From Cellulomonas sp. RIT-PI-Y (GTDB lineage: Bacteria; Actinomycetota; Actinomycetes; Actinomycetales; Cellulomonadaceae), in NCBI RefSeq assembly GCF_025642745.1, contig NZ_JANZKP010000011.1, forward strand, positions 1 to 64,000: a stretch of 64,000 nucleotides of DNA, read 5' to 3'. Each line of letters opens with the position of its first letter. Position 1 is the first letter of the stretch. The translations under genes were made by a program, and so were the position numbers. The notes under the pieces are model-generated. The model was not told the DNA's origin. It was given only the letters and a program-made list of their open reading frames with translations, and did no database searches. Positions 3-14,057 of this stretch are shown in pieces.

Positions 3-563
3 GTCCTGCCCGGTCCCGCCTCCGAGGACGACCACGACGGCATGACCATCCTCAGCGGCGAGCTGGCCAGCATCCGGCAGAACCTGCCGTCCTGGGCGGT
101 CTCCGAATCCGGGCAGTGGCCGTCCGGGCCCGCCGTCGCGCCCGGCACGGGTTCGCCCGCCGCGCCCGGCACCGCCCCGCTGGAGGCCGTGGCGCTGACA
201 CCGCCGCCCCCCGCGCCGGACTCGTTCCCGCGGGTGGCGCTGTCCACCGGCGTCGTGGTGCCGGTCGACGGCGTGCTGCTGATTGGCCGCGCCCCGCAGG
301 CCGCCCGGGCGCCGGAGGGGGTGCGCACCCGGCTGGTCGCGGTGCCCAGCCCCACCCAGGACATCTCCCGCACGCACGCCGAGCTCCGGGTCTCCGACGG
401 ACGGGTGCTGGTCACCGACCTGTTCTCGACCAACGGCGTCACCGTGGCCTCCGGCGGTCTGCCGCCGCGCAAGATCGCCGCGGGGGAGCCCGTCGCGGTG
501 GGCGCGGGGGAGATCGTCGACCTGGGTGACGGCGTGACCTTCACCGTGGAGCCGCCTGCATGA
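3..563 (+). CDS. FHA domain protein, 5' end outside the window
   Basis: The reading frame is open from base 3, so the first ATG seen (base 42) need not be the true start and the gene probably begins upstream. After a short N-terminal piece and a Pro/Ala-rich linker, the C-terminal ~100 residues form a forkhead-associated (FHA) domain, a phosphothreonine-binding fold. The conserved marks are visible: an IGR strand, SRTHAEL and STNG. It should read phosphorylation made by the kinase encoded immediately downstream, whose ATG overlaps this stop by four bases (ATGA). No membrane segment is visible in the part present. The family role is known; the specific partner is inferred. Confidence 0.85.
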   Translation, partial: VLPGPASEDDHDGMTILSGELASIRQNLPSWAVSESGQWPSGPAVAPGTGSPAAPGTAPLEAVALTPPPPAPDSFPRVALSTGVVVPVDGVLLIGRAPQAARAPEGVRTRLVAVPSPTQDISRTHAELRVSDGRVLVTDLFSTNGVTVASGGLPPRKIAAGEPVAVGAGEIVDLGDGVTFTVEPPA

Positions 564-2020
564 GCCCACGCGAGGCCGCGCCGGCACCGCGACTCCCGGG
601 CTACACGTTCTCCCATCTGCTCGGCGGTGGCGGTGCCGCCGACGTGTACTGCTACGACCAGCAGCTGCCAAGGCGCCAGGTGGCGGTCAAGGTGCTGCTG
701 CCCTCGGTCGACGACGCGGAGAAGTCCGCCTTCGAGCGGGAGGCCGACCTCACTGCGCGGGTGTCCCAGCACCCGTCGATCGTCACCGTCTACCAGGCGG
801 GGGTGTCCGAGGACGGTCGCGAGTACCTGGTCATGGAGCACTGCCCGCGCCCGACCCTGGGCCAGCGCTACCGCACCGAGCGGATCGGCGTGCCCGAGGT
901 GCTGCGGATCGGCGTGCAGCTGGCCTGCGCGGTGGAGTCCATGCACCGGGCCGGGATCGTGCACCAGGACATCAAGCCCGCGAACATCCTGGCCAACGAC
1001 TTCGGCCGGCCGGTCCTGAGCGACTTCGGCATTGCAGCGCCGATCGACGACCCGGCACCCGCGGTCGGCATGTCGATCCCGTGGGCGGCGCCAGAGCTGC
1101 TGGCCGCCGCGCCGCAGGCCGGGCCCCGGGCGGATGTCTACTCGTTGGCCGCGACGCTGTTCTCCGCGCTCGCGGGCCGGTCGCCCTTCGAGCGGCCGCA
1201 CGGCCAGAACGAGGCCGCCGACCTGGTCGGGCGGATCGAACGGGGCACCCCGACCCCGTTCACCCGCGAGGACGTCCCGGCCCGGTTGCACACCGTGCTG
1301 GCCCGGGCGATGGCCACCGACCCGGCCCGACGGCACGCGCACGCGGTGGACCTGGCGATGGACCTGCGTGCGGTGGAGGCGGACCTCGGCCTGCCGCTGA
1401 CCCCGTTGGACCTCGGGGAGGCCCCGGGGGCGGCCGTCGTCGGCGGCGTCGACCCGGACGCGACCCGGGTCCGTGGTGTGCGCCAGATCCGGCCGGACGA
1501 CGACGCCACCCGGACGCGCCCGGTGCACGCGGTGCCCGCCGTACCGGAGCCCGAGGTCGACCTGCGGGTGTCGGTGGACCCCGAACCCCGGCGCCGGCAC
1601 ACCGGTCGGCTGATCGCCGGGATCCTCTCCGCGGTGGTGCTGGTCGCCGCGGTGGTGGTCGTGCTGCTGGTCACCCGGGACCCGGATCGCGGTGTCAACC
1701 GGGACGACGACCCGCTGGCGAACCCGGTGCCCACCGTCGGCCTGACCGTCCCGACCCCGATCGGTCTGAGCGGCACCCGTCAGGCGGACGGCAGTGCGGT
1801 CTTCACCTGGCGCAATCCTGATCCGCAGGAGGGCGACAGCTACCTGTGGGGCGTGCTGCGCAGCACCGGCCAGACCCGACTCCAGCCGACCGAGACCACC
1901 AGCGTGACCATCCCGGCCGAGGACATCGACGACCTCGACGCGGAGGTCTGCGTCGAGGTGTCGGTGGTCCGGGCGGACCGGCGGGCCTCCACCGCACCGG
2001 CCCAGGGGTGCACCGAGTGA
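560..2020 (+). CDS. membrane Ser/Thr protein kinase (PknB-like) with extracellular domain
   Basis: A 486-residue Hanks-type kinase. The kinase domain spans about residues 14-280: Gly-rich loop LGGGGAADVY, ATP-anchoring Lys44, catalytic loop HQDIKPAN with Asp137, DFG at Asp155, and an APE motif. The usual HRD is HQD, and the activation segment has no Thr in the normal phosphorylation positions, so activation may differ from classical PknB. An acidic/proline linker leads to one membrane segment at about 350-372, and the ~110 residues outside resemble an FN3-like beta domain rather than PASTA repeats. The start is fixed by the ATGA overlap with the FHA gene. The next gene is coupled through GTGA. 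Confidence 0.92.
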   Translation: MSPREAAPAPRLPGYTFSHLLGGGGAADVYCYDQQLPRRQVAVKVLLPSVDDAEKSAFEREADLTARVSQHPSIVTVYQAGVSEDGREYLVMEHCPRPTLGQRYRTERIGVPEVLRIGVQLACAVESMHRAGIVHQDIKPANILANDFGRPVLSDFGIAAPIDDPAPAVGMSIPWAAPELLAAAPQAGPRADVYSLAATLFSALAGRSPFERPHGQNEAADLVGRIERGTPTPFTREDVPARLHTVLARAMATDPARRHAHAVDLAMDLRAVEADLGLPLTPLDLGEAPGAAVVGGVDPDATRVRGVRQIRPDDDATRTRPVHAVPAVPEPEVDLRVSVDPEPRRRHTGRLIAGILSAVVLVAAVVVVLLVTRDPDRGVNRDDDPLANPVPTVGLTVPTPIGLSGTRQADGSAVFTWRNPDPQEGDSYLWGVLRSTGQTRLQPTETTSVTIPAEDIDDLDAEVCVEVSVVRADRRASTAPAQGCTE

Positions 2021-5000
2021 GGTGGCCCTGGGACCGCAAGCGCACCGCGTCGACCGCCGCCGTGGTGACGGTGCCCGCCGTGCTGGCGACGCTCGCCGTC
2101 GTCAACCCCGGCTTCCCGCTGGCGCAGGTGGAGCTGAACGACGGAGCGGTCTGGCTGACCGCGACCAGCACCCTGCAGCTCGGCCGGTACAACGCGCAGG
2201 TCGAGGAGCTCAACGCCGGCCTGGTGGCCAGGAGCGGGGACTTCGACGTGCGGCAGGAGGCCTCCGACGTCCTGCTGGTCGAGCCCGGCACGCTCACCGT
2301 GGTCGACCCCGCGTCGGTCGCGGCCGCCGCCGAGGTGCCGGTGCCCGCGGGCGCCCAGATCGCGATGCAGGCCGGAACGGTGGCGGTGCTGGACGGCGAC
2401 GGCCAGGTCTGGGTGCGCACCCTGGCCGACCTGCCCGCCCTGCAGACCGGCACCGACCCGGCGGACGCCAGCGTGGACGGAGACGCCCGGGTGGTGGTCG
2501 GCAGCTCCGGCGACGCCTTCCTGGTTGCCGCGGACACGGGTGACGTGACCCGGATCAGCCCGGTGACCGGGGGGACGGCGACCAGCACCGGGGAGACCGG
2601 CCTGGGCGGCGGCGTCGACGCGGTGACCGCGGTCGGCGACACCGTGGTCGGCCTGGACGGCGACACGCTGCGCACCGCGGGCGGTTCGGTGTCGCTGGGC
2701 CTGAGCCAGCCGGTGCTGCAACAGGCCGGGCCGCCGGCGGACACCGTCCTGGTCGCGGGGAGCGCCGGTCTGGTCGAGGCCTCGGTGGCGAACGGGTCGG
2801 TGACCGCGCAGTACGACGGCGGCAGCCGCGGCGGCACCCCCGCGGCCCCGGTCCGGGTCGGCGACTGCGCGCACGCGGCCTGGCCCTCCGCCCGGGACAA
2901 CTACCTCATGCTCTGCGACGACCAGGCGGAGCAGCTGCTCACCCTGGACGGGATGACCACCGGCGCCACCCTGGTGTTCCGGGTCAACCGCCAGGTCGTC
3001 GCGCTGAACGAGACCCGCGACGGCCGGCTCTGGCTGCCGTTGCAGGACACCGAGCTGCGCGAGCCGGACTGGTCCCAGGTGATCCCGGAGGAGGAGACCC
3101 AGGACGACAGCGAGCAGGCGGAGGGCGACCGCACCACCCACGAGCTGGTCGCGGAGTGCTCCACCAACAGCGCCTCTCCGTCCGCGGTCGACGACGACTA
3201 CGGCGTGCGACCGGGCCGGTCCGCCATCCTGTCCGTGATCGACAACGACACCTCCTCGGACTGCGGCATCCTGGTGATCACCGAGTTCGATCCGTTGCCG
3301 GAGTCCTTCGGCACCCTGGAGCCGGTGTACGGCGGCCGGGCGTTGCAGGTCCGCGTCGAGCCGGGCGCCACCGGCACCGCGACCTTCAGCTACTCGATCA
3401 GCGACGGCCGGGGCACCAGCTCGCCGTCCACCGCGACCGTCACGCTCACCGTGCGCGACACCCAGAACGATCCGCCGGTCCAGCAGCGCACCGGCAGCAT
3501 CCTGCTGGAGCAGACCGCCACCGCGACCTACTCGGTGCTGGCCGACTTCACGGATCCGGACGGCGACGAGCTGACCCTGGTCGGCGCCACCGCGGAGAAG
3601 GGCACCGCCCGGTTCCGGCAGGACGGCACCCTGACCTACGTCGCCGACGGTGGGGACCTCGGCCCGACGACCGTGCACCTGCTGGTGTCCGACGGGACGA
3701 ACACCACCGAGGGCACCGTGGACGTGGACGTGCGGGCCGCGGGGTCGTTGGACTTGCAGCTGGACCCGGTGCACGCCCAGACCTACACCGACCTGGCCGT
3801 CGAGTTGGACCCGCTGGCCGCGGTGCGCACCCACGGCGCCGAGACCCCGCGACTGGCCGGGGTGGACCAGGTCGGCGGCACCACGATCACCCCCGACCTG
3901 GACCAGGGCACCATCCGGTTCTCCGCGGCCTCTGCCGGGACGTACTACGTGTCCTTCACCATCACCGCCGCCCCGCAGCAGGCCACCGGCCTGGCCCGGA
4001 TCGACGTGGTCGACCCGCCGGAGACCCCGGAGCCGCCGACCGCCGTCCTGGACCGGGCCTGGCTGCCCACCGGCGGCGACCTGACCGTCGCACCGCTGGC
4101 GAACGACACCGACCCGGCCGGCGGCGTCCTGGTGCTGCAGTCGGTGAGCGCGCCGGAGGAGCTCAGGGTCGCGGTGCAGAACCACGAGCTGGTCGAGGTC
4201 TCCGCGGTCGGCGCGCTGACCGAGCCGGTGGTCCTCGAGTACGTGGTGACCAACGGCAGCGCCAGCGCGACCGGGGAGATCCTGGTCCAGCCGGTGCCCC
4301 CGGCCAGCACCTCGCAGCCGCCGGTGGTGCCGAACGCCGTCGTCGAGGTCCGCACCGGCGGCGTGGTCACCATCCCGGTGCTGGCGGACGCCTACGACCC
4401 GGACGGCGACACCCTCGCCCTGGTCACCGAGTTCGCCGAGCCGCTCGGGTCCGGCGAGGGTCTGATGTTCGTCTCCGGGGACGTGCTGCGCTACCAGGCA
4501 CCCGCCACCGCGATGACCGTCCGGGCGACCTTCGTGGTCCGGGACAGCACCGGCAACGAGACCGCGGCCACCGCCACCGTCCGGGTGCACGACTCCGATC
4601 CGGCCACCAAGGTGCCGCCCCGCCCGAAGGACGTGGTCGCCCGGGTGTTCACCGGCGACACGGTCCGGATCGCCGTCCCGCTGATCGGCATCGACGTGGA
4701 CGGCGACGGCGTCAGCCTGCTCGGCGTGGACACCGCGGGCACCAAGGGCCGGGTCACCGCGGTCGGTGCGGACTGGCTGGAGTACGAGGCGCTGCCAGGG
4801 GAGTCCGGCACCGACGAGTTCACCTACGCGGTGGAGGACTGGACCGGTCAGCGTGCGGTCGGCACCGTCCGGGTGGGCATCGCCGACCGCCCGGAGGACA
4901 GCAACCGGGTCGTGGCCCGGGACGACCAGGTCACCGTGCGTCCCGGCCAGCGGGTGGAGGTGCGCGTCCTGGACAACGACGTCGACCTGGCCGGTGGCGA

Positions 5001-7878
5001 CCTGAGCGTGGACCCGGCGCTGGAAGTGCCCGAGGGTGTGACCGCGGAGGTCCAGGGCCGGCGCGTCGTGGTGGACGCCCCCGACGCGGCGGGCACCTAC
5101 GCGATCGGCTACACGGCGGTGAACGAGATCGGCGCCTCCTCCGGCGCGGTGCTGACCGTGGACGTCGCCCCGGACGCGGCGGTGCTGCCCCCGGTCGCCC
5201 AGGACGTGGTCGTGCCCCCGGCCGACACCATCGACCGGACCTCGGTGGACGTGGACGTGCTGGAGGTCGCCCAGAACCCCAGCGGTCCGATGTCCGACCT
5301 GGCCGTCTCGGTGCCCACCAGCGCCCAGGACGTGGCCACCGTGCTGGAGGACGGCACGGTGCGGATCACCCTGGCCGCGACCGCGCAGACCCTGCCGTAC
5401 CGGCTGACCAACACCGCCGACGACACCGGCACCGCCACCGCCTACGCGTTCATCACCGTGCCCGCCCTCGGCTTCTTCCCGCCGCAGCTGCGACCCAGGG
5501 CGGACGAGCTGCGGGTGGCCAGCGGGGACACCCTCACCATCGCACTCGGCGCCCAGGTGCAGGTCGCCCCGGGCCGGACCGCCCAGATCGACGACGCCGG
5601 CGCGGTCACCGCGACCCGGTCGGACGGCGGTGCGCTGGTGGTCGACGACACCACGCTGCAGTTCACCTCCGAGCCGGGCTACGCCGGTCCGGCCTCGATC
5701 ACGGTCCCGGTCACCGACGCCACCGGCCCGGACGACCTGAACGCCCGCACCCGGACGCTCACCCTGCCGATCACCGTGTTCACCGAGGACGACTACCCGC
5801 CGACCTTCTCGCCCAGCCGGATCGAGGTCGCGCCGGGCGAGGCCCCGGTGTCGGTGGACCTGCGGAACTTCACCCAGGGCGTCGAGGGCTCCGCCGGGGA
5901 CCAGGTCTACGGCTTCCGCCTGACCTCCGGGGCACCGGCCGGCTTCACCGCGTCGCTGGACGGCACCCGGCTGAGCGTGTCCGCCGCCACCAGCACGACG
6001 AAGGGCAGCGCGGGCACCGTCCAGCTCCAGCTCAGCTACGGCCGCGCCGGCACCATGGACGTCCAGGTCGAGGTGCGCGCCATCGCCAGCACCCGGCGCC
6101 TGGCCAGCGTCCCGGACCGCACCCTCAACGACGGCGTGCAGGGGCAGGACACCGCAGTCGACGTGCTCGCCGGGGCGTACAACCCGTTCCCCGAGCAGGC
6201 GCTCACCGTGGTCGGCGCCACCGTGCAGACCTCCGGGACCGGCACCGCCTCCGTGTCCGGCGGCAACGTGATCGTCCGGCCGAACGCCGACCTGACCGGG
6301 CAGATGGTGGTGCAGGTCCGGGTGCGCGACGCGACCGACGACGCCTCCCGTGAGGTCGCCGCCACCATCTCGCTCCGGGTGCGGGGCAAGCCGGCGGCGC
6401 CCAAGGCGCCCCGGGTCGGCGAGGTCCGCGACTCCACCGTGGTGCTCAGCTGGGACGCGCCGGACGCACGCGGCGAGCCGATCACCGGGTACCGCGTCAC
6501 CGTGAGCCCCGGCGGTCAGCAACGCGCCTGCGCGTCGACCACCTGCACCCTCGACGGCCTGACCAATGACGTCGAGTACACCTTCACCGTGGCCGCCCAG
6601 AACGCGGTCGGCTGGTCCGACCCGAGCCCGGCGTCCGCCACCGCCCGGCCCGACGCGGTCCCGGACGCCCCGGCCGCGCCGACCCTGCAGTGGGGCGACA
6701 AGGAGATCACCGCGAACTGGGTCGCCCCCGCGTCCAAGGGATCGCCGATCACGTCTTACACCGCGACCATCTCGCCCGCCCCCCGCGGCGGATCGGCCAG
6801 CCAGACCGTGACCGGGACCTCGGCGACCTGGCGCGGGCTGGAGAACGGCACGGCGTACACCGTGCAGGTCCGGGCGCACAACCGGGCGCCGCAGCCGAGC
6901 GGGTGGAGCCCGTCGTCGGCTGCCGCGACCCCTGCGGCACCGCCGTCGTCGCCGAGCTTCGGTGCCGAAGCGGTGCAGTCAGTGGGCGCCGGTCAGCTCC
7001 AGGTCGCGTGGACCCCCTCCGAGTCGGACAACGGCGCCCCTCTGACCTACGTGCTGACCGTCGCGGGCGAGGGTCGGCGGTGGACCGAGCGGTTGGCCGC
7101 GAGCGTAACCAGTTACACGATCCCGGGGACCGTGGCCAACAATGCCCCCTACACGTTCTCCCTCTACGCGACCAATGTCGCCGGTGACTCCCGGCCTCTC
7201 GTGACGGTCGAGGGGAGGGCGTTCGACGTGCCCAGCGCACCAGGTCAGCCGTCCATCTCTGCGGCCTCTGGTGACACGGCGGCCGGGCAGGGGTGGGTCA
7301 GGATCTCCTGGCGGGCGGCCTCCGGCAATGGAGCGGATATCGACCGCTACGACATCCAGACATCGGCGGGAACGGTGACCTCGGTCGGCGCGGCGAATGC
7401 CACGATCAGCGGCCTGAGTGCGGGTCAAGCGTTGACGGTTCAGGTCACGGCGCACAATAGGCGAGGATCGGGGCCCCCTGCGGCCATGAGCGTCGCGGAC
7501 AATACCGTCCGCACCCTCTCCACTGGCCCGCGTGGGCTAACGGTGACACCCATCACCGGTGAGGGACAACCCACACAGGCCACTCTGTCCTGGTCCGAGC
7601 CCGATGACGTCGGCGGTACCTCGGTGCAGCAGTACGAGTACCGGCTCTCCGGCTGGGGAGTACTCGGCGCGCCGATCACTTCTCCCGCGCCTGACCCGGC
7701 GAACTCCACCTCCGTGAACGTCGCCCTGCCGACCGATCGAGTGGTCACCAACCCGAGCACCGTGACACTGGAGGTCCGCGCCCGGACCGCGATCGGCTGG
7801 GGCCCATGGACCTCCTTCGCCCAGCGCGTGGGATGGAGCGAACCAGCGCCCGATCCCACCGGGGGCGCCGACGGATGA
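2017..7878 (+). CDS. giant exported Ig-like/fibronectin type III repeat protein
   Basis: The start taken is GTG at 2017, overlapping the kinase stop as GTGA; an in-frame ATG at 1846 lies well inside the kinase gene and is rejected. The product is 1953 residues. A basic stretch (RWPWDRKR) and one hydrophobic segment form a signal anchor. Residues ~40-330 look like a beta-propeller-type domain, followed by an acidic linker. A long run of cadherin/Ig-like repeats follows, with recurring DPDGD and LDNDV motifs and Ca-binding character. From about residue 1455 there are five FN3 domains. It is probably a surface or wall-spanning adhesin or scaffold in the kinase/MoxR cluster. No sortase motif or C-terminal membrane segment is visible. 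The last ~950 bases have visibly different codon use. Confidence 0.9.
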   Translation: MRWPWDRKRTASTAAVVTVPAVLATLAVVNPGFPLAQVELNDGAVWLTATSTLQLGRYNAQVEELNAGLVARSGDFDVRQEASDVLLVEPGTLTVVDPASVAAAAEVPVPAGAQIAMQAGTVAVLDGDGQVWVRTLADLPALQTGTDPADASVDGDARVVVGSSGDAFLVAADTGDVTRISPVTGGTATSTGETGLGGGVDAVTAVGDTVVGLDGDTLRTAGGSVSLGLSQPVLQQAGPPADTVLVAGSAGLVEASVANGSVTAQYDGGSRGGTPAAPVRVGDCAHAAWPSARDNYLMLCDDQAEQLLTLDGMTTGATLVFRVNRQVVALNETRDGRLWLPLQDTELREPDWSQVIPEEETQDDSEQAEGDRTTHELVAECSTNSASPSAVDDDYGVRPGRSAILSVIDNDTSSDCGILVITEFDPLPESFGTLEPVYGGRALQVRVEPGATGTATFSYSISDGRGTSSPSTATVTLTVRDTQNDPPVQQRTGSILLEQTATATYSVLADFTDPDGDELTLVGATAEKGTARFRQDGTLTYVADGGDLGPTTVHLLVSDGTNTTEGTVDVDVRAAGSLDLQLDPVHAQTYTDLAVELDPLAAVRTHGAETPRLAGVDQVGGTTITPDLDQGTIRFSAASAGTYYVSFTITAAPQQATGLARIDVVDPPETPEPPTAVLDRAWLPTGGDLTVAPLANDTDPAGGVLVLQSVSAPEELRVAVQNHELVEVSAVGALTEPVVLEYVVTNGSASATGEILVQPVPPASTSQPPVVPNAVVEVRTGGVVTIPVLADAYDPDGDTLALVTEFAEPLGSGEGLMFVSGDVLRYQAPATAMTVRATFVVRDSTGNETAATATVRVHDSDPATKVPPRPKDVVARVFTGDTVRIAVPLIGIDVDGDGVSLLGVDTAGTKGRVTAVGADWLEYEALPGESGTDEFTYAVEDWTGQRAVGTVRVGIADRPEDSNRVVARDDQVTVRPGQRVEVRVLDNDVDLAGGDLSVDPALEVPEGVTAEVQGRRVVVDAPDAAGTYAIGYTAVNEIGASSGAVLTVDVAPDAAVLPPVAQDVVVPPADTIDRTSVDVDVLEVAQNPSGPMSDLAVSVPTSAQDVATVLEDGTVRITLAATAQTLPYRLTNTADDTGTATAYAFITVPALGFFPPQLRPRADELRVASGDTLTIALGAQVQVAPGRTAQIDDAGAVTATRSDGGALVVDDTTLQFTSEPGYAGPASITVPVTDATGPDDLNARTRTLTLPITVFTEDDYPPTFSPSRIEVAPGEAPVSVDLRNFTQGVEGSAGDQVYGFRLTSGAPAGFTASLDGTRLSVSAATSTTKGSAGTVQLQLSYGRAGTMDVQVEVRAIASTRRLASVPDRTLNDGVQGQDTAVDVLAGAYNPFPEQALTVVGATVQTSGTGTASVSGGNVIVRPNADLTGQMVVQVRVRDATDDASREVAATISLRVRGKPAAPKAPRVGEVRDSTVVLSWDAPDARGEPITGYRVTVSPGGQQRACASTTCTLDGLTNDVEYTFTVAAQNAVGWSDPSPASATARPDAVPDAPAAPTLQWGDKEITANWVAPASKGSPITSYTATISPAPRGGSASQTVTGTSATWRGLENGTAYTVQVRAHNRAPQPSGWSPSSAAATPAAPPSSPSFGAEAVQSVGAGQLQVAWTPSESDNGAPLTYVLTVAGEGRRWTERLAASVTSYTIPGTVANNAPYTFSLYATNVAGDSRPLVTVEGRAFDVPSAPGQPSISAASGDTAAGQGWVRISWRAASGNGADIDRYDIQTSAGTVTSVGAANATISGLSAGQALTVQVTAHNRRGSGPPAAMSVADNTVRTLSTGPRGLTVTPITGEGQPTQATLSWSEPDDVGGTSVQQYEYRLSGWGVLGAPITSPAPDPANSTSVNVALPTDRVVTNPSTVTLEVRARTAIGWGPWTSFAQRVGWSEPAPDPTGGADG

Positions 7879-7931
7879 CCATCGCCCCGACCACCACCTC
7901 GCACCACCCGACAGGAGTCCACCCACGATGA
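7875..7931 (+). CDS. possible 18-codon coupling mini-ORF
   Basis: An ATG at 7875 overlaps the stop of the giant gene (ATGA). The frame runs 18 codons and ends with a TGA that overlaps the MoxR ATG at 7928, again as ATGA. The peptide is rich in Thr, His and Pro and resembles nothing I recognise. An AGGAG ribosome site for MoxR lies inside it. It may only serve to carry ribosomes across the 49-base gap between two coupled genes, or it may be chance. Confidence 0.3.
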   Translation: MTIAPTTTSHHPTGVHPR

Positions 7932-8881
7932 CCCCCGACGAGTCCACCTGGTTCTCCCAGACCTTCGGCGCGCTGACCCGCAACGTCTCGCGCGCGGTGC
8001 TCGGCGCCGACGGCCCGGTGCGGCTGGTGCTGACCGCGATGGTCGCCGAGGGCCACGTGTTGCTGGAGGACGCTCCGGGCACCGGCAAGACCTCGCTGGC
8101 CAAGGCGATCGCCGCCTCGGTGCGGGGCAGCCACCAGCGGATCCAGTTCACCCCCGACCTGCTGCCCAGCGACGTCACCGGCGTGACCATCTGGGACCAG
8201 GGCACCCGGGAGTTCGTCTTCCACGAGGGCCCGGTGTTCACCTCGGTGCTGCTCGCGGACGAGATCAACCGTGCCTCGCCCAAGACCCAGTCCGCGCTGC
8301 TGGAGGTGATGGAGGAGGGGCACGTCACCGTGGACAAGGACACCCACTCCGTGGGCCGCCCGTTCATCGTGATCGCCACCCAGAACCCGGTGGAGCAGGC
8401 CGGCACCTACCGCCTGCCGGAGGCCCAGCTGGACCGGTTCCTGGTGCGCACCTCGCTCGGCTACCCGGATCGCACCGCCACGGTGGAGATCCTGTCCGGT
8501 CAGCGGGACCGGACCGCCGCGCTGGAGGCGGTGATCGGCACCGAGCACGTGCTGCGGATGGCCGACCTCGCGCAGGGCGTGCACGTCGACGGCGCGGTGC
8601 TGGACTACGTGGCGCGGCTGCTGGAGGCCACCCGCGAGGACCCGCAGACCTCGCTGGGTGCGAGCGTCCGCGGTGGTCTGGCGCTGGTGCGGTGCGCCAG
8701 GGTCGCGGCCGCCGCGTCCGGACGGACCTACGTGGTGCCGGACGACATCAAGGAGCTGGCGGTCCCGGTGCTGGCCCACCGTCTGGTGCTGGACCCCGAG
8801 GCGGACTTCCTGGGTGCGACCACCACGGACGTGGTGCAGCGGGCGCTGGACAGCACGCCGCCCCCGGTGGCGCGGGCCTGA
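7928..8881 (+). CDS. MoxR-family AAA+ ATPase
   Basis: This 317-residue cytoplasmic ATPase is of usual length for the MoxR family. Walker A is APGTGKTS (Lys54, Thr55) and Walker B is LLADEIN (Asp111, Glu112). It is followed by the sensor-1 region with IATQNPVEQ and the typical PEAQLDRF segment. MoxR proteins act as chaperone-like ATPases and are almost always encoded next to DUF58 and transglutaminase-like membrane proteins, exactly as here. AGGAG lies about 10 bases upstream of the ATG. The DUF58 gene follows after three bases. What it remodels is not known; the adjacent envelope proteins are the obvious candidates. Confidence 0.93.
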   Translation: MTPDESTWFSQTFGALTRNVSRAVLGADGPVRLVLTAMVAEGHVLLEDAPGTGKTSLAKAIAASVRGSHQRIQFTPDLLPSDVTGVTIWDQGTREFVFHEGPVFTSVLLADEINRASPKTQSALLEVMEEGHVTVDKDTHSVGRPFIVIATQNPVEQAGTYRLPEAQLDRFLVRTSLGYPDRTATVEILSGQRDRTAALEAVIGTEHVLRMADLAQGVHVDGAVLDYVARLLEATREDPQTSLGASVRGGLALVRCARVAAAASGRTYVVPDDIKELAVPVLAHRLVLDPEADFLGATTTDVVQRALDSTPPPVARA

Positions 8882-8884
8882 GCG

Positions 8885-10045
8885 ATGGGACCTCTGCGGA
8901 CTCGACTGTCGGCGGTGGGCTGGGGTGCGATCGCCCTCGGCCTGCCGCTGCTGGTCGTGGGTCTGTGGCTGAGCTGGGCCGAGCTGACCGCCGTCGGCGC
9001 GGTCGCGATGGCGGCGGTGCTGGTCGCCCTGGTCACGACGCTCGGGCGGCTGCCGCACGGGGTGCGTCTGGACCTGGCAGACCGCCGGGTGCGGGTGGGG
9101 GAGCGCGCGTTCGGCGGCGTCGTGGTGACCGCGCCGCAGCGCCGGACCCGGGCGATCGGGCTGGAGTTGCAGGTCGGGCACGGCCGCGCGGAGCTGGACG
9201 TGCCGCCGCTGGCCCCGGGCGCGGTGCATGAGGAGCTGTTCGCGGTGCCGACCCACCGCCGGGCGGTCGTGACCGTGGGCCCGGTGCGGGCGGTGCGGGC
9301 CGACCCGCTGGGGCTCGCGGTGCGCCGGGTGACGGCCACCGGCGCGCAGGAGCTGTACGTCCACCCCCGGATCGTCATGCTGACGGGCGCGGACGCGGGC
9401 CTGCTGCGTGACCTCGAGGGCGGGTCGACCCGCGACCTGTCGGACGCCGACCTGGCCTTCCACGCGCTGCGGGACTACGTGGTCGGTGACGACCGACGCT
9501 CGATCCACTGGCGCACCACCGCCCGGCGCGGGGTCCTGACGGTCAAGCAGTACGAGGACACCCGCCGCACCCAGACCGCCGTGGCGATGTCCACCGACCC
9601 GCGCGACTACGCCCGGGACGAGGAGGACCTGGAACTGGCGGTGGGCGTGCTCGCCTCGCTCGGCGTGCAGGTGATGTCCGAGGAGCACCCGCTGGCGGTG
9701 CTGGCCGGGACGAACCGGGTCCGCACCACCGGTCGCCGGCCGTTCCTGGACGACTGCTCCGCGCTCGCACTCACCCCGGACGGCTCCGGCACGTCCCTGC
9801 TCGGCCGTCGGGTCGCCCGGGAGGTGCCGGACGTGACGCTGGCGTTCCTGGTCACCGGGTCCGAGCCCACCGACGCCGACCTGCGCGCGGCCGCCCGGCA
9901 CGTGCCCGAGGGCACCCGCACCCTGGCGATCGGCTGTCGTCCCGGCGCGGAGGTGCGGGTCCGGACGTTGCGCGGACTGAGCCTGGTGCAGCTGGGCGCG
10001 CTGGACGACCTGCCCCGGGCCCTGCGGCTGGCGGCGCGGGCATGA
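8885..10045 (+). CDS. DUF58 domain membrane protein
   Basis: A 386-residue protein with two hydrophobic segments at about residues 10-58 followed by a large soluble region. The DUF58 hallmark GDDRRSIHW lies at about residues 201-209. The region after it has a von Willebrand factor A-like fold in this family. DUF58 proteins are genetic partners of MoxR ATPases and TgpA-type proteins; their biochemical role remains poorly defined. The stop overlaps the next gene as ATGA (10042-10045), so the two are probably made together. Confidence 0.92.
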   Translation: MGPLRTRLSAVGWGAIALGLPLLVVGLWLSWAELTAVGAVAMAAVLVALVTTLGRLPHGVRLDLADRRVRVGERAFGGVVVTAPQRRTRAIGLELQVGHGRAELDVPPLAPGAVHEELFAVPTHRRAVVTVGPVRAVRADPLGLAVRRVTATGAQELYVHPRIVMLTGADAGLLRDLEGGSTRDLSDADLAFHALRDYVVGDDRRSIHWRTTARRGVLTVKQYEDTRRTQTAVAMSTDPRDYARDEEDLELAVGVLASLGVQVMSEEHPLAVLAGTNRVRTTGRRPFLDDCSALALTPDGSGTSLLGRRVAREVPDVTLAFLVTGSEPTDADLRAAARHVPEGTRTLAIGCRPGAEVRVRTLRGLSLVQLGALDDLPRALRLAARA

Positions 10046-12444
10046 GCGCGCCGACCGCCGTTCCCGCGCCGACCTCAGCGGAACCGGTCGCCGTGCCGGT
10101 CGCGCGGGTGTCGCCGGTCCGGCGGTTCGCCGAGGTCGCCGTGCCGCTGGTCGCCGTGCTGCTCGCCCTCACCCCGCTGCTCCCGGTCTACGGGGGCGCC
10201 ACGCTGCTGCGCCCGGTGCTCGGCGGCGCGCTGCTCGGCACCCTGCTGGCGCTCGCGATGGTGCGGTGGCGCTGGAACGGCCTGGTCGCGACCGCGGTCA
10301 CCCTGGCCGCCACGGCGGTGCTCGGCGGACCGCTCGCCACCCCGGACGCCACGATCGCCTCGGTGGTGCCCACCCCGACGTCGCTCGCCCAGGTGGTGCG
10401 CGGTGCGGCGCTGGGCTGGAAGGACGCGCTCACCCTGCAACCCCCGCTCGGCGACTCGGGCTGGTTGACGGTGCCGCCGTTCCTGCTCGCGCTGGTCGGC
10501 GCGCTGGCCGGTGTGCGGCTGGCGCGGGCGGGTGACCGGTGGGCCCCGTTGTCCGCCGTCCCGGCCCCGGTCGTGCTGGTCGGCGCCGTGCTGCTCGGAT
10601 CACGGGACACCGTGCTGCCCGCCGTGGTCGGTGCGGTGCTCGGCCTGGGCCTGCTGCTCTGGGCGTCGTGGCGAGCGGGCCGGTTCCGGCTGCGGCGTCC
10701 CGCGGCGCTCGCGGTGCTGCTGGTGGTGGCCCTGGGCGCCGGGATCGGTGGCGGCGCGGCGGTGCAGGCCGCCGACGACCGGTTCGTGCTGCGCGAGCGG
10801 CTCGTCCCGCCCTTCGACCCCTACGACTACCCGAGCCCGCTGTCGGCCTTCCGCTCGTTCGTGAAGCAAGACGACACCGTCGACCTGTTCACCGTCACCG
10901 GTCTGCCCCAGGGCGGCCGGATCCGGCTGGCGACCTTCGACCGGTTCGACGGCGTGGTCTGGAACGTGGCCGGGGACGGCAGCTCGCGCTCCTCCGGGCA
11001 GTTCCGCCGGGTCGGCAGCACCGTGGACGACACCGGGGCCGCCGTGGCGGGCGAGCGGGCCGAGGTGGACATCCGGGTGGACGGTCTCACCGGGGTCTGG
11101 CTGCCGACCGTGGGCGCGGCGGAGTCGATCACGTTCGACGACGCCACCGCCCAGTCCGAGCTGCGCTACAACGACGCCACCGGCTCCGCCGTCCTCACCG
11201 GCGGTCTCACGACCGGCACGCACTACACCGTCGACACCGTGATCCCCGCCGAGCCCGAGGACACCCAGATCGGCGCGGCGGCGGTGGCCCCGACCGACCT
11301 GCCCGAACCGAGCGGGGTGCCGGACGCCGTGGTCACCGCCGCCGGTGACGCGGCCCGGGACGCCCGGACGCCGCTGGAGGTGGCCCGCGCGATCGAGCAG
11401 GAGCTCGCCGAGAGCGGCTACTTCTCGCACGGGCTCACCGCCGCCGGGGACTACCCGTCGCTGTCCGGGCACGGCGCGGACCGGTTGACCGCCCTGCTCG
11501 GCGGGGACCTGATGGTCGGCGACGACGAGCAGTACGCCTCCGCGATGGCCCTGATGGCCCGGGAGATGGGCCTGCCCGCCCGGGTGGTGATGGGCTTCGT
11601 CCCCGGGATGACCGACGACGGCACCATCGCCGCGCGGGAGGCCGCCGAGCCGATCACGGTCTCCGGCGCGGACCTCCACGCCTGGGTCGAGATCCCGTTC
11701 GACGGCTACGGCTGGATCACTTTCGACCCGACCCCGCCGGAGTCGCAGACCCCGCAGGAGGACGACGAGACCAGCCCGTCCGAGCCGGAGCCCCAGGTCG
11801 CCCAGCCGCCGCCCCCGCCCGCCGACCCGGTCGACCCGCCGGACGACGACGCCGAGGACCCGCAGACCGACGATCCCGGCCAGGACACCGAGCTCACCGT
11901 GTGGCAGACCGTGCTGCTCGGTGTGGCGGCCGGGTCCGGTGTGCTGCTGCTGATCGCCGCGCCGTTCCTGGCGATCGTGGCGCTGAAGGCCCGGCGACGG
12001 CGTCGTCGCCGCTCGGACCCGGCACCGGTGCGCCGGGTGGTCGGAGGCTGGCAGGAGGTCCTCGACCTCGCCACGGACCTGCGGCTGAGCACCGACCCGC
12101 TGGCCACCCGCCGGGAGACCGCGGTCGCGCTCGGTGCCGCCTTCGGCGGCCACCAGCCCGCGGACGGTCGTCGAGGCCGCCGGGACCGTGACGCGCACGA
12201 CCTGGCCCCGGCGGTCCGGGAGCTGGCCGCCCACGCCGACGCCGTGGTCTTCGGACCCGGCGAGCCCACCGTCGACCAGGCCCGCCGGTTCTGGTCCGAC
12301 GTCGACCGCACCCTGGCCCGGATGCGGGCCGCCACCCCACGTCGGGCACGATGGCGGGGACGGTTCACCGCCCGGTCGTTGCGCGCCCGCGCCGCCGTAC
12401 GCCGCCGAGACCGGGCGATCAGGACGAGGAGACAGCAGCGATGA
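10042..12444 (+). CDS. TgpA-like transglutaminase-fold membrane protein, catalytic Cys replaced
   Basis: An 800-residue membrane protein. About six N-terminal membrane segments (residues 30-245) precede an extracellular transglutaminase-like domain, a Pro/Asp/Glu-rich linker, one more membrane helix near residues 620-645 and an Arg-rich cytoplasmic tail. Family members carry a Cys-His-Asp triad. Here His546 (LHAWVEI) and Asp562 (ITFDPTP) are present, but the motif usually read as GYCEQFA is GDDEQYA, placing Asp495 where the nucleophilic Cys should be. It is therefore probably a binding or structural pseudoenzyme. It overlaps its neighbours by ATGA at both ends. Confidence 0.92.
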   Translation: MSAPTAVPAPTSAEPVAVPVARVSPVRRFAEVAVPLVAVLLALTPLLPVYGGATLLRPVLGGALLGTLLALAMVRWRWNGLVATAVTLAATAVLGGPLATPDATIASVVPTPTSLAQVVRGAALGWKDALTLQPPLGDSGWLTVPPFLLALVGALAGVRLARAGDRWAPLSAVPAPVVLVGAVLLGSRDTVLPAVVGAVLGLGLLLWASWRAGRFRLRRPAALAVLLVVALGAGIGGGAAVQAADDRFVLRERLVPPFDPYDYPSPLSAFRSFVKQDDTVDLFTVTGLPQGGRIRLATFDRFDGVVWNVAGDGSSRSSGQFRRVGSTVDDTGAAVAGERAEVDIRVDGLTGVWLPTVGAAESITFDDATAQSELRYNDATGSAVLTGGLTTGTHYTVDTVIPAEPEDTQIGAAAVAPTDLPEPSGVPDAVVTAAGDAARDARTPLEVARAIEQELAESGYFSHGLTAAGDYPSLSGHGADRLTALLGGDLMVGDDEQYASAMALMAREMGLPARVVMGFVPGMTDDGTIAAREAAEPITVSGADLHAWVEIPFDGYGWITFDPTPPESQTPQEDDETSPSEPEPQVAQPPPPPADPVDPPDDDAEDPQTDDPGQDTELTVWQTVLLGVAAGSGVLLLIAAPFLAIVALKARRRRRRRSDPAPVRRVVGGWQEVLDLATDLRLSTDPLATRRETAVALGAAFGGHQPADGRRGRRDRDAHDLAPAVRELAAHADAVVFGPGEPTVDQARRFWSDVDRTLARMRAATPRRARWRGRFTARSLRARAAVRRRDRAIRTRRQQR

Positions 12445-14057
12445 GCACCGCAGCCGTGATCGGCGCACCACCCGCCCCCGTGGGTCGTCGCGTCGTCGCC
12501 GCCCTGATCGACGGGCTGGGCACCGCGCTGTGCGCCCTGCCGATCTGGCTCGCCGTGCTGACCACCGGCGTGGACGCGGAACGTGCCGCGACCGCACCGG
12601 TGCTGCCGGTGCTGCCCAGTCTGATCGGCGGGGGACTGCTGCTGGTGTGGGGCGTCGTGCAGTGGGTGCTGCACGGCACGAAGGGCTGGACGATCGGACG
12701 CCGCCTGCTCGGACTGCGCGTCGTCGACGTGATGACCGGTCGGCCGATCGGGCTGGGCCGCGCGCTGGTGCGGACGCTGATCGTCGCGCTCGGCACCGTG
12801 GCCTGCGGCGTCGGGCAGTGGGTGGTGCTCGCGTCGGTGTTCTGGGACCCGACCGGCCGCCGTCGTGGTTGGCACGACCGGATCGCGGAGGCCGTGGTGG
12901 TCGACGTGCGCGCCACCTCCGCGGGATCGCGGCTGGACGGGTACCGGGAGCGTGACCCGCGGGCCGGTGGCAGGTCCGGCGCGACGCCCACCGCAGCGTC
13001 GTCCCTCGCCGCGTCGGCCGCCGGTGGTGCCGCCTCCGAACGGCCGTCCGACGTCACCGCGGGGCCGTCGTCGAGCACGATCCCGGTCCCGCCGTCGGAG
13101 GCCGCCGCGGGCCGGCTCCCGGGAGTCACCCCCGTCGCGCCGTCGCGCCCCGACGCTCCGCAGGCGCCCGGTCAGACCCGCTGGGCCGGGATGATCGCGA
13201 ACGGTCAGCCGCCCCGTGGGCCGGGGCTGGTCCTGCCGCCGCTGGGCGGATCGCGCGCGGCGGCGGACGAGCAGCCGCCGCTCCCGCCGACGACGCCGTC
13301 GGCGGGTCGGCCCGCGATCGGCGCGCCGTTGCTCCCGGTCCCCGGGCCGGGGCTCGGCGACACCCAGGGACTCGCGGTCGGTGAGGCGCTGTCCGCCCAG
13401 GACGATGCTGCTGGTCCGGCCGCGGGCACGACCCGGGAGACCGATCCCGACGCGATGCGGTGGACGGGTACCCCCGCCGCCGTGCCCGAGGACGGTCCGC
13501 AGGCCGGCGTGGCGGCCCCTGAGACCCCGCTGCCCGGCAACGCCATGGGCGACACCACGCAGCTCCCGCCGGTCCCCGGGGAACCGGCCGCCGCGCCCGT
13601 CGTCCCGCCGATGGACTCGTTCTGGTCCGACCCGGCGCCCACCCACGACACGTCGACGCCGCCCGGTCCTGCCCGTTCCGCCGCGGGCACCCCGCGGCCC
13701 GGGGGGATCGCCCCCGGGCCCGCCGGCTGGGCCGCCCGACTGCCCGACGGCACCCTGCTCGACCTCGACGGCGGCCCGGTGCTGATCGGTCGCAATCCCG
13801 CGGGGCTGGTCGGACTGCGGGCGGTGGCGGTGCACGACCCGGGCATGTCGGTGTCCAAGACCCACCTGGTGATCGGTGCGGACGTCGCCGGCGCCTGGGT
13901 GATGGACCGCGGCTCGACCAACGGCACCCTGGTCACGCTGCCCGACGGTGAGCGGATCGTCTGCCTGCCCGACCAGCGGGTCCGGGTGGCGCCCGGGTCG
14001 GTGGTCTTCTTCGGCGATCTGTCCCTGACCGTCGGCCTGCTCGATCCGGACGCGTGA
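12441..14057 (+). CDS. RDD membrane domain-FHA domain fusion protein
   Basis: The start is ATG 12441 (ATGA overlap with the previous stop, GAGGAG upstream), not the in-frame ATG 90 bases earlier inside the preceding gene. The protein has 538 residues. Residues ~10-155 are an RDD domain with membrane segments and the motif KGWTIGRRLLGLRVV. Residues ~156-425 are a Pro/Ala/Gly-rich low-complexity linker. Residues ~430-535 form an FHA domain (LIGRNPAG, SKTHLVIG, STNGT). The fusion places a phosphothreonine reader at the membrane and closes the cluster that began with another FHA protein. It is likely recruited by phosphorylation from the cluster's kinase. Confidence 0.9.
   Translation: MSTAAVIGAPPAPVGRRVVAALIDGLGTALCALPIWLAVLTTGVDAERAATAPVLPVLPSLIGGGLLLVWGVVQWVLHGTKGWTIGRRLLGLRVVDVMTGRPIGLGRALVRTLIVALGTVACGVGQWVVLASVFWDPTGRRRGWHDRIAEAVVVDVRATSAGSRLDGYRERDPRAGGRSGATPTAASSLAASAAGGAASERPSDVTAGPSSSTIPVPPSEAAAGRLPGVTPVAPSRPDAPQAPGQTRWAGMIANGQPPRGPGLVLPPLGGSRAAADEQPPLPPTTPSAGRPAIGAPLLPVPGPGLGDTQGLAVGEALSAQDDAAGPAAGTTRETDPDAMRWTGTPAAVPEDGPQAGVAAPETPLPGNAMGDTTQLPPVPGEPAAAPVVPPMDSFWSDPAPTHDTSTPPGPARSAAGTPRPGGIAPGPAGWAARLPDGTLLDLDGGPVLIGRNPAGLVGLRAVAVHDPGMSVSKTHLVIGADVAGAWVMDRGSTNGTLVTLPDGERIVCLPDQRVRVAPGSVVFFGDLSLTVGLLDPDA

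Follow-up and report, generated by a model that had tools for sequence, protein, structure and literature searches.

Units that combine a MoxR ATPase, a DUF58 protein, and a transglutaminase-fold protein are widespread, but what they do is poorly understood, and the transglutaminase is easily assumed to be the output enzyme. The locus studied here, contained in the first 64,000 nucleotides of a Cellulomonas contig (hereafter the window), raises the question of what such a unit does if its transglutaminase-fold protein lacks the catalytic Cys. An earlier note had proposed that Asp replaces this Cys, that only the nucleophile has been lost, and that the protein keeps a conserved binding or structural role rather than being in decay. 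We examined this proposal by comparing the predicted fold, the active-site columns, and the genomic context of the protein with those of its relatives.

The transglutaminase-fold gene and its operon

The gene (10042..12444, forward strand) encodes, according to its translation and Pfam, a TgpA-type membrane protein of 800 aa with a transglutaminase-fold extracytoplasmic domain (window:10042-12444:+, LMVGDDEQYASAM). Its Transglut_core domain (PF01841; 11350..11730, forward strand, aa 437-563) belongs to the transglutaminase superfamily by its profile match (E 2.9e-18, 66.6 bits versus a cut-off of 23), and TgpA_N matches aa 37-403 (32.2 bits versus a cut-off of 30). Hydrophobic segments lie within aa 25-244 and at 618-652, which gives the architecture of TgpA, namely a TgpA_N membrane region, the transglutaminase domain, a late membrane helix, and a C-terminal tail, the sidedness of which we infer.

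All the surrounding genes identified from the list of open reading frames and Pfam lie on the forward strand and follow one another with overlaps or short gaps: an FHA-domain protein (42..563), a protein kinase (Pkinase, 560..2020), a large Big_9/fibronectin type III (FN3) repeat protein (2017..7878, with its start inferred at a GTG at 2017 that overlaps the kinase stop), a MoxR AAA ATPase (7928..8881; AAA_3, E 1.3e-61), a DUF58 protein (8885..10045), the transglutaminase-fold protein, and a protein with an RDD membrane domain and an FHA domain (12441..14057). The DUF58 gene ends at 10045 and overlaps the transglutaminase-fold gene, which starts at 10042 and in turn ends at 12444, overlapping the start of the RDD-FHA gene at 12441; the intact, coupled kinase/FHA/MoxR/DUF58 operon described before is therefore borne out. 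Because base 1 of the contig is also the start of the window, the region preceding the first FHA gene is out of view. A hydrophobic stretch C-terminal to the kinase domain in the translation suggests that the kinase may be membrane-anchored. The catalytic loop of this kinase reads HQD in the translation, the usual motif of protein kinases being HRD.

The window has the order kinase, FN3, AAA ATPase, DUF58, and transglutaminase, which is the one described in bifidobacteria as PFNA (kinase, fn3, AAA ATPase, duf58, tgm), and adds FHA genes at both ends. In the PFNA papers, the TGM protein is labelled a transglutaminase, "presumably a cysteine protease", and ligand binding by its membrane part is discussed (PMC6803598, PMC8430577).

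The extracytoplasmic part (10762..11799, forward strand, aa 241-586) was modelled from alignment A1, which contains 61 ectodomain sequences (mean pLDDT 90.1, pTM 0.89), and the predicted fold is that of the periplasmic domain of Pseudomonas aeruginosa TgpA, whose structures 6g4h (E 3.4e-14) and 6g49 (E 9.5e-14) are the best Foldseek matches. VIA-align, used as a second look at Foldseek's own list, also recovered the transglutaminase fold (Z 21.8, rmsd 3.1, 247 aligned residues with 6g49; Z about 6 to 9 with human transglutaminases), and the A1 profile retrieved 6g49 by sequence as well (E 3e-11). Weaker structure matches include protein 4.2 (VIA-align) and Rad4 (Foldseek). TgpA (PA2873) is reported to be an inner-membrane protein with a periplasmic transglutaminase-fold domain, to be co-transcribed with PA2875 and PA2874, to keep the Cys-His-Asp triad, and to have a periplasmic domain that is active in a colorimetric assay (PMC3507681). 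The window protein is similar to it in being a membrane protein with an extracytoplasmic domain of this fold, whereas it has Asp for Cys and its operon adds kinase, FN3, and FHA genes. We take PA2875 and PA2874 to be the MoxR and DUF58 proteins of that system.

The active-site motif of the window protein, located by translation and alignment of relatives, is VGDDEQYA (11515..11538, forward strand, aa 492-499), which includes GDDEQYA where TgpA has Cys, and the triad columns, which lie on the same strand, read Asp495 (11524..11526), His546 (11677..11679), and Asp562 (11725..11727). Of the residues expected in an active transglutaminase, the His and the acidic residue are present, and Asp495 replaces the Cys that opens the central helix. 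In a Cys-type paralogue, GYCTQYA aligns with GFCAHYA (GFCAHYAGAM) of TgpA chain 6g49, and in the profile of the window relatives QYA aligns with HYA of the same chain; taken together, the two alignments indicate that Asp495 occupies the position of the catalytic Cys, and the replacement claimed in the earlier note is thus confirmed by DNA, translation, and alignment. Since the 800 residues include no Cys at all, no shifted Cys could replace the catalytic one. In the predicted model, 495 is the first residue of the former catalytic helix and 494 the last one before it, so that residue 494 would be the N-cap in this single model; Asp, Asn, and Thr are favoured helix N-caps.

Residue 495 and its neighbours among relatives

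Relatives were collected in two ways. In a seeded scan of genome contigs with six seed patterns, 80 of 167 confirmed stretches were kept, and these had Asp at 495 in 80 of 80, His at 546 in 75, and Asp at 562 in 64; of the 67 seeded loci whose upstream sequence was long enough, 65 showed the order FN3-MoxR-DUF58-transglutaminase. One of the seeds was MVGDDEQY, so the count of Asp at 495 is biased and was not taken as proof, and unseeded relatives were therefore collected by querying whole genomes with the full protein. The samples comprised the family (21 genomes including the window's own), the order (39, including its own), a family of mostly small genomes (21), and the class (40, including its own). 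By score, 39 non-window genes from both family samples and the order sample (E 1e-30 or better) were assigned to the PFNA set, and five rows (L107, L140, L182, L197, and L200) were added via their placement in the tree, giving 44 unseeded PFNA-type rows from 41 genomes. A later addition of 20 stretches yielded 19 transglutaminase rows (none from L214), of which 3 PFNA rows and 1 GT-type row (defined below) lack the Cys and the other 15 have it. A weak match in the order sample (G034:C493) and 15 class-sample matches with E 1.5e-19 or weaker stand outside the counts. For the trees, thinning removed 52 of the 80 seeded loci and left 28, each duplicate pair (L090/L120, L100/L119, and L099/L106) contributed a single row, and L160 gave no transglutaminase match.

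None of the 39 genes matching the window protein at E 1e-30 or better has Cys at 495, and the same holds for all 44 unseeded PFNA-type rows, so that the search for a Cys in close relatives, by which the proposal could have been overturned, left it standing. The best-scoring match that bears the Cys has E 2.4e-25 (row L198 from genome G025 of the order sample). A uniform Asp at this column, which the earlier note had expected throughout the clade, was not found: residue 495 is Asp in 21 of the 44 rows, Ser in 7, Ala in 6, Glu in 6, and Gly in 4, and Gly, Ser, Ala, or Glu is found in other members of the genus and family to which the window belongs. The idea that the nucleophile alone was lost fits the window protein and many relatives but not the clade, in which His is found at 546 in 13/44 and Asp or Glu at 562 in 27/44 unseeded rows. 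The positions beside 495 are far more uniform. Residue 494 is Asp in 43 of the 44 rows and Asn in 1, compared with Tyr or Phe in 66/66 rows of the Cys type, and Glu496 and Gln497 are each present in 44/44 (first 51 Cys rows: Glu at 496 in 13, Gln at 497 in 40). No variation is seen at Gly493, Arg514, Gly518, and Glu550 across the first 41 PFNA rows or the first 51 Cys rows. Judging from the aligned sequences, the truly fixed residues are the neighbours Asp494, Glu496, and Gln497, and not Asp495.

In the family sample, the gene is present in 17 of the 20 other genomes, with Asp at 495 in 7, Ala in 4, Gly in 3, Ser in 2, and Glu in 1; of the remaining genomes, G004 contributes L107, a distant row with Asp-Arg-Glu, G018 has a GT-type row (L100) together with a Cys-type row (L112), and G001 was seen to have the Cys type only (L103). 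Among the 26 genomes outside the order in the class sample, each represented by one row, 23 have the Cys type, 3 the GT type, and none the PFNA type. The nearest relative found, L001, is 79% identical over the match and has Asp at 495; the presence of Asp there and in all 80 kept loci of the scan partly seeded on MVGDDEQY, together with the lack of Cys in the 44 unseeded rows, indicates that Asp495 of the window is not due to chance or sequencing error. The window protein (Asp495) and L082 (Gly495) have 234 of 375 positions in common. Among the close relatives L040, L042, and L121, residue 495 alternates between Asp and Ala, with Phe as the third triad residue. Genome G041 carries a second PFNA-type transglutaminase, L196 (G041:C1:523500-531000), with a Gly-Arg-Asp triad, in addition to L129 (Glu-Thr-Arg) and L200, another divergent copy.

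A Cys shifted to a nearby position was also considered and rejected, as the window protein has none and the first 41 unseeded relatives have none at 495. Within the cut region, 30 of these 41 relatives have no Cys and 11 have one or two, several of which are in the membrane part. One Cys precedes the motif by a few residues in L107 and L182, two lie close to the His column in L139 and L140, and in L133 and L180 a single Cys is located later in the former catalytic helix or immediately past its end.

These observations make it likely that the window protein is a member of a TgpA-family pseudoenzyme branch that belongs to the PFNA operon. A different explanation is that Asp495 has itself been selected in this lineage, forming with His546 and Asp562 an Asp-His-Asp site that binds a metal or a ligand. 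Asp is found in 12 of the 13 unseeded rows that bear His, most seeded loci have Asp-His-Asp/Asn, and the coupling of Asp and His is pronounced in Fisher tests (p 9e-5 in 41 unseeded rows and 3e-8 in 70 rows). However, it is not significant on phylogenetically independent pairs (median p 0.25), and L004 and L006, two of the 8 rows that group nearest to the window, retain Asp495 with Ser or Thr in place of His. Furthermore, L040 and L042 have Ala or Thr at the His column and Phe at 562, and L121 has Ala495 despite being identical to L040 (Asp495) at 335 of 375 positions. The three PFNA rows added later (D-S, D-T, and G-R) have no His, and two of them have Asp. We therefore regard a selected Asp495 as unlikely.

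Cys-bearing paralogues and the loss of the nucleophile

All 66 Cys rows have Cys-His-Glu or Cys-His-Asp, with an aromatic residue before the Cys as mentioned above, and MoxR, DUF58, and transglutaminase-fold genes are adjacent in many of their loci; many of these TgpA-like paralogues, which come from the same class, share the MoxR and DUF58 neighbours with the window, and all differ by their complete triad. Phylogenetic analysis of all 146 aligned rows after removal of the three triad columns (tree 2, a quick search with some long branches) placed the 73 PFNA rows (the window, 28 seeded, and 44 unseeded) in one group without any Cys row (support 100, read from the re-rooted tree). A single branch (support 94) splits the 80 Cys-less rows, i.e., these 73 and 7 others, from the 66 Cys rows. 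With every Cys-less row on the same side of this branch, losing the Cys once would be enough to explain them. In tree 1, also a quick search with some long branches, which included 102 rows (26 of the then 51 Cys rows) with the triad columns removed, Asp at 495 required nine changes.

The 7 other rows form a second Cys-less set that adjoins the PFNA clade in the tree. L100, L109, L155, L161, L165, and L205, referred to as the GT type, have GTSEQF, GTTEQF, or GTAEQF, and L102 has GYAEQYA; Glu496 and Gln497 are present in 7/7, and kinase, MoxR, or DUF58 matches share the locus with several of these rows.

The paralogues also bear on the question of whether the PFNA-type protein might be a pseudo-subunit that contributes to catalysis by completing the active site of another, Cys-bearing transglutaminase. 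PFNA-type and Cys-type genes do occur together in many sampled genomes (such as G020, G016, and G008). However, in the genome of the window organism (completeness 99.98), the protein studied here is the single Transglut_core match at E 0.001 or better, and it is Cys-less, which makes a role of this kind very unlikely.

One bifidobacterium-like genome, G057, has the published PFNA order at L192 (G057:C9:109000-128500). Its phosphoketolase domain is about 90% identical (rough count) to the crystal structures of the 3ahc group, presumably Bifidobacterium proteins. The transglutaminase-fold protein of this genome (L128) falls within the PFNA clade and has VGDSEQYA at the motif, and its His and Asp columns are occupied by Thr and Tyr, respectively. 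With a Ser-Thr-Tyr triad, the published label of transglutaminase or cysteine protease does not fit this protein. For the PFNA branch as a whole, the sequences leave Cys-based catalysis untenable.

Selection and a proposed non-catalytic role

The remaining catalytic possibility is a new catalyst, in which Asp495 would act as the nucleophile of an Asp-His-Asp triad, as in Asp-nucleophile hydrolases. The window protein has all three residues, and its fold is predicted to be intact, but residue 495 is Ala or Gly in 10/44 and His is missing in 31/44 unseeded relatives, and the close relatives L004 and L006 lose the His while keeping the Asp; such a catalyst is highly improbable.

Selection was estimated by the Nei-Gojobori method on these high-GC genes, with dS being about 2, near saturation, in two of the 11 PFNA pairs. 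The dN/dS of the transglutaminase core is below 1 in 11/11 pairs and ranges from 0.07 to 0.31 in ten of them; in the eleventh, the window versus L082, it is 0.44 in the core and 0.67 in the rest of the ectodomain, which is not low. One Cys-type pair gave 0.41 for the core. The values below 1 indicate that the gene is kept by purifying selection. Decay, either as a pseudogene or as a recent loss in a single strain, would account for the missing nucleophile, but it has a negligible chance of being correct given the full-length frame of 800 aa that overlaps both neighbours, the dN/dS below 1, and the lack of Cys in the whole sampled branch.

The absence of the Cys from the clade and from every position of the window protein, the intact fold and operon, and the dN/dS below 1 together argue for a conserved non-catalytic role rather than decay, in agreement with what had been proposed. 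Based on gene order and topology, the pseudoenzyme probably serves a MoxR-DUF58-transglutaminase membrane complex as an extracytoplasmic sensor or scaffold. After the loss of catalysis, the Cys column probably turned into a helix-start position like any other, one that accepts Asp, Ser, Ala, Glu, or Gly, and Asp494, Glu496, and Gln497 probably became fixed, holding the helix and the site. In proteins bearing Asp495 the His is frequently retained, perhaps as part of an Asp-His ion pair that replaces the Cys-His pair; the retention of His546 and Asp562 in many Asp-bearing relatives is not demanded by a purely structural reading. The domain might then serve as an extracytoplasmic binding or scaffold module for the large FN3 surface protein or for a cell-wall ligand, with its membrane segments and C-terminal tail forming the connection to the MoxR-DUF58 machine and kinase/FHA signalling.

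Catalytically inactive transglutaminase-fold proteins have been reported, including EPB42 (protein 4.2), Rad4/XPC, and CC2D2A (PMC10318531), so a protein of this kind is not new in itself. The likeness lies in a transglutaminase- or papain-like fold that outlives catalysis, whereas those proteins are eukaryotic and the window protein is a bacterial membrane protein from an operon with a kinase and MoxR. In the open-licence PMC literature, including the accessible portions of PMC6803598, PMC8430577, PMC3507681, PMC10318531, and PMC7159879, we found no statement that the PFNA transglutaminase lacks the Cys and no bacterial, kinase-linked, clade-wide case of a Cys-less transglutaminase.

A large branch keeps the whole unit without the nucleophile, implying that the conserved work of the unit in these bacteria is not cross-linking. 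More speculatively, and on balance doubtfully, an order-wide switch of this membrane machine from enzyme to receptor may have occurred. The former catalytic pocket, remodelled with Asp494, Glu496, and Gln497 at its core, would then bind a peptide that derives from the cell wall or from FN3, and would gate both the MoxR ATPase and the kinase/FHA pathway. If so, the bifidobacterial PFNA "transglutaminase" would be a sensor rather than an enzyme that cross-links. The finding offers a testable correction for the literature on bifidobacterial PFNA and singles out Asp494, Glu496, and Gln497 as the residues of interest.
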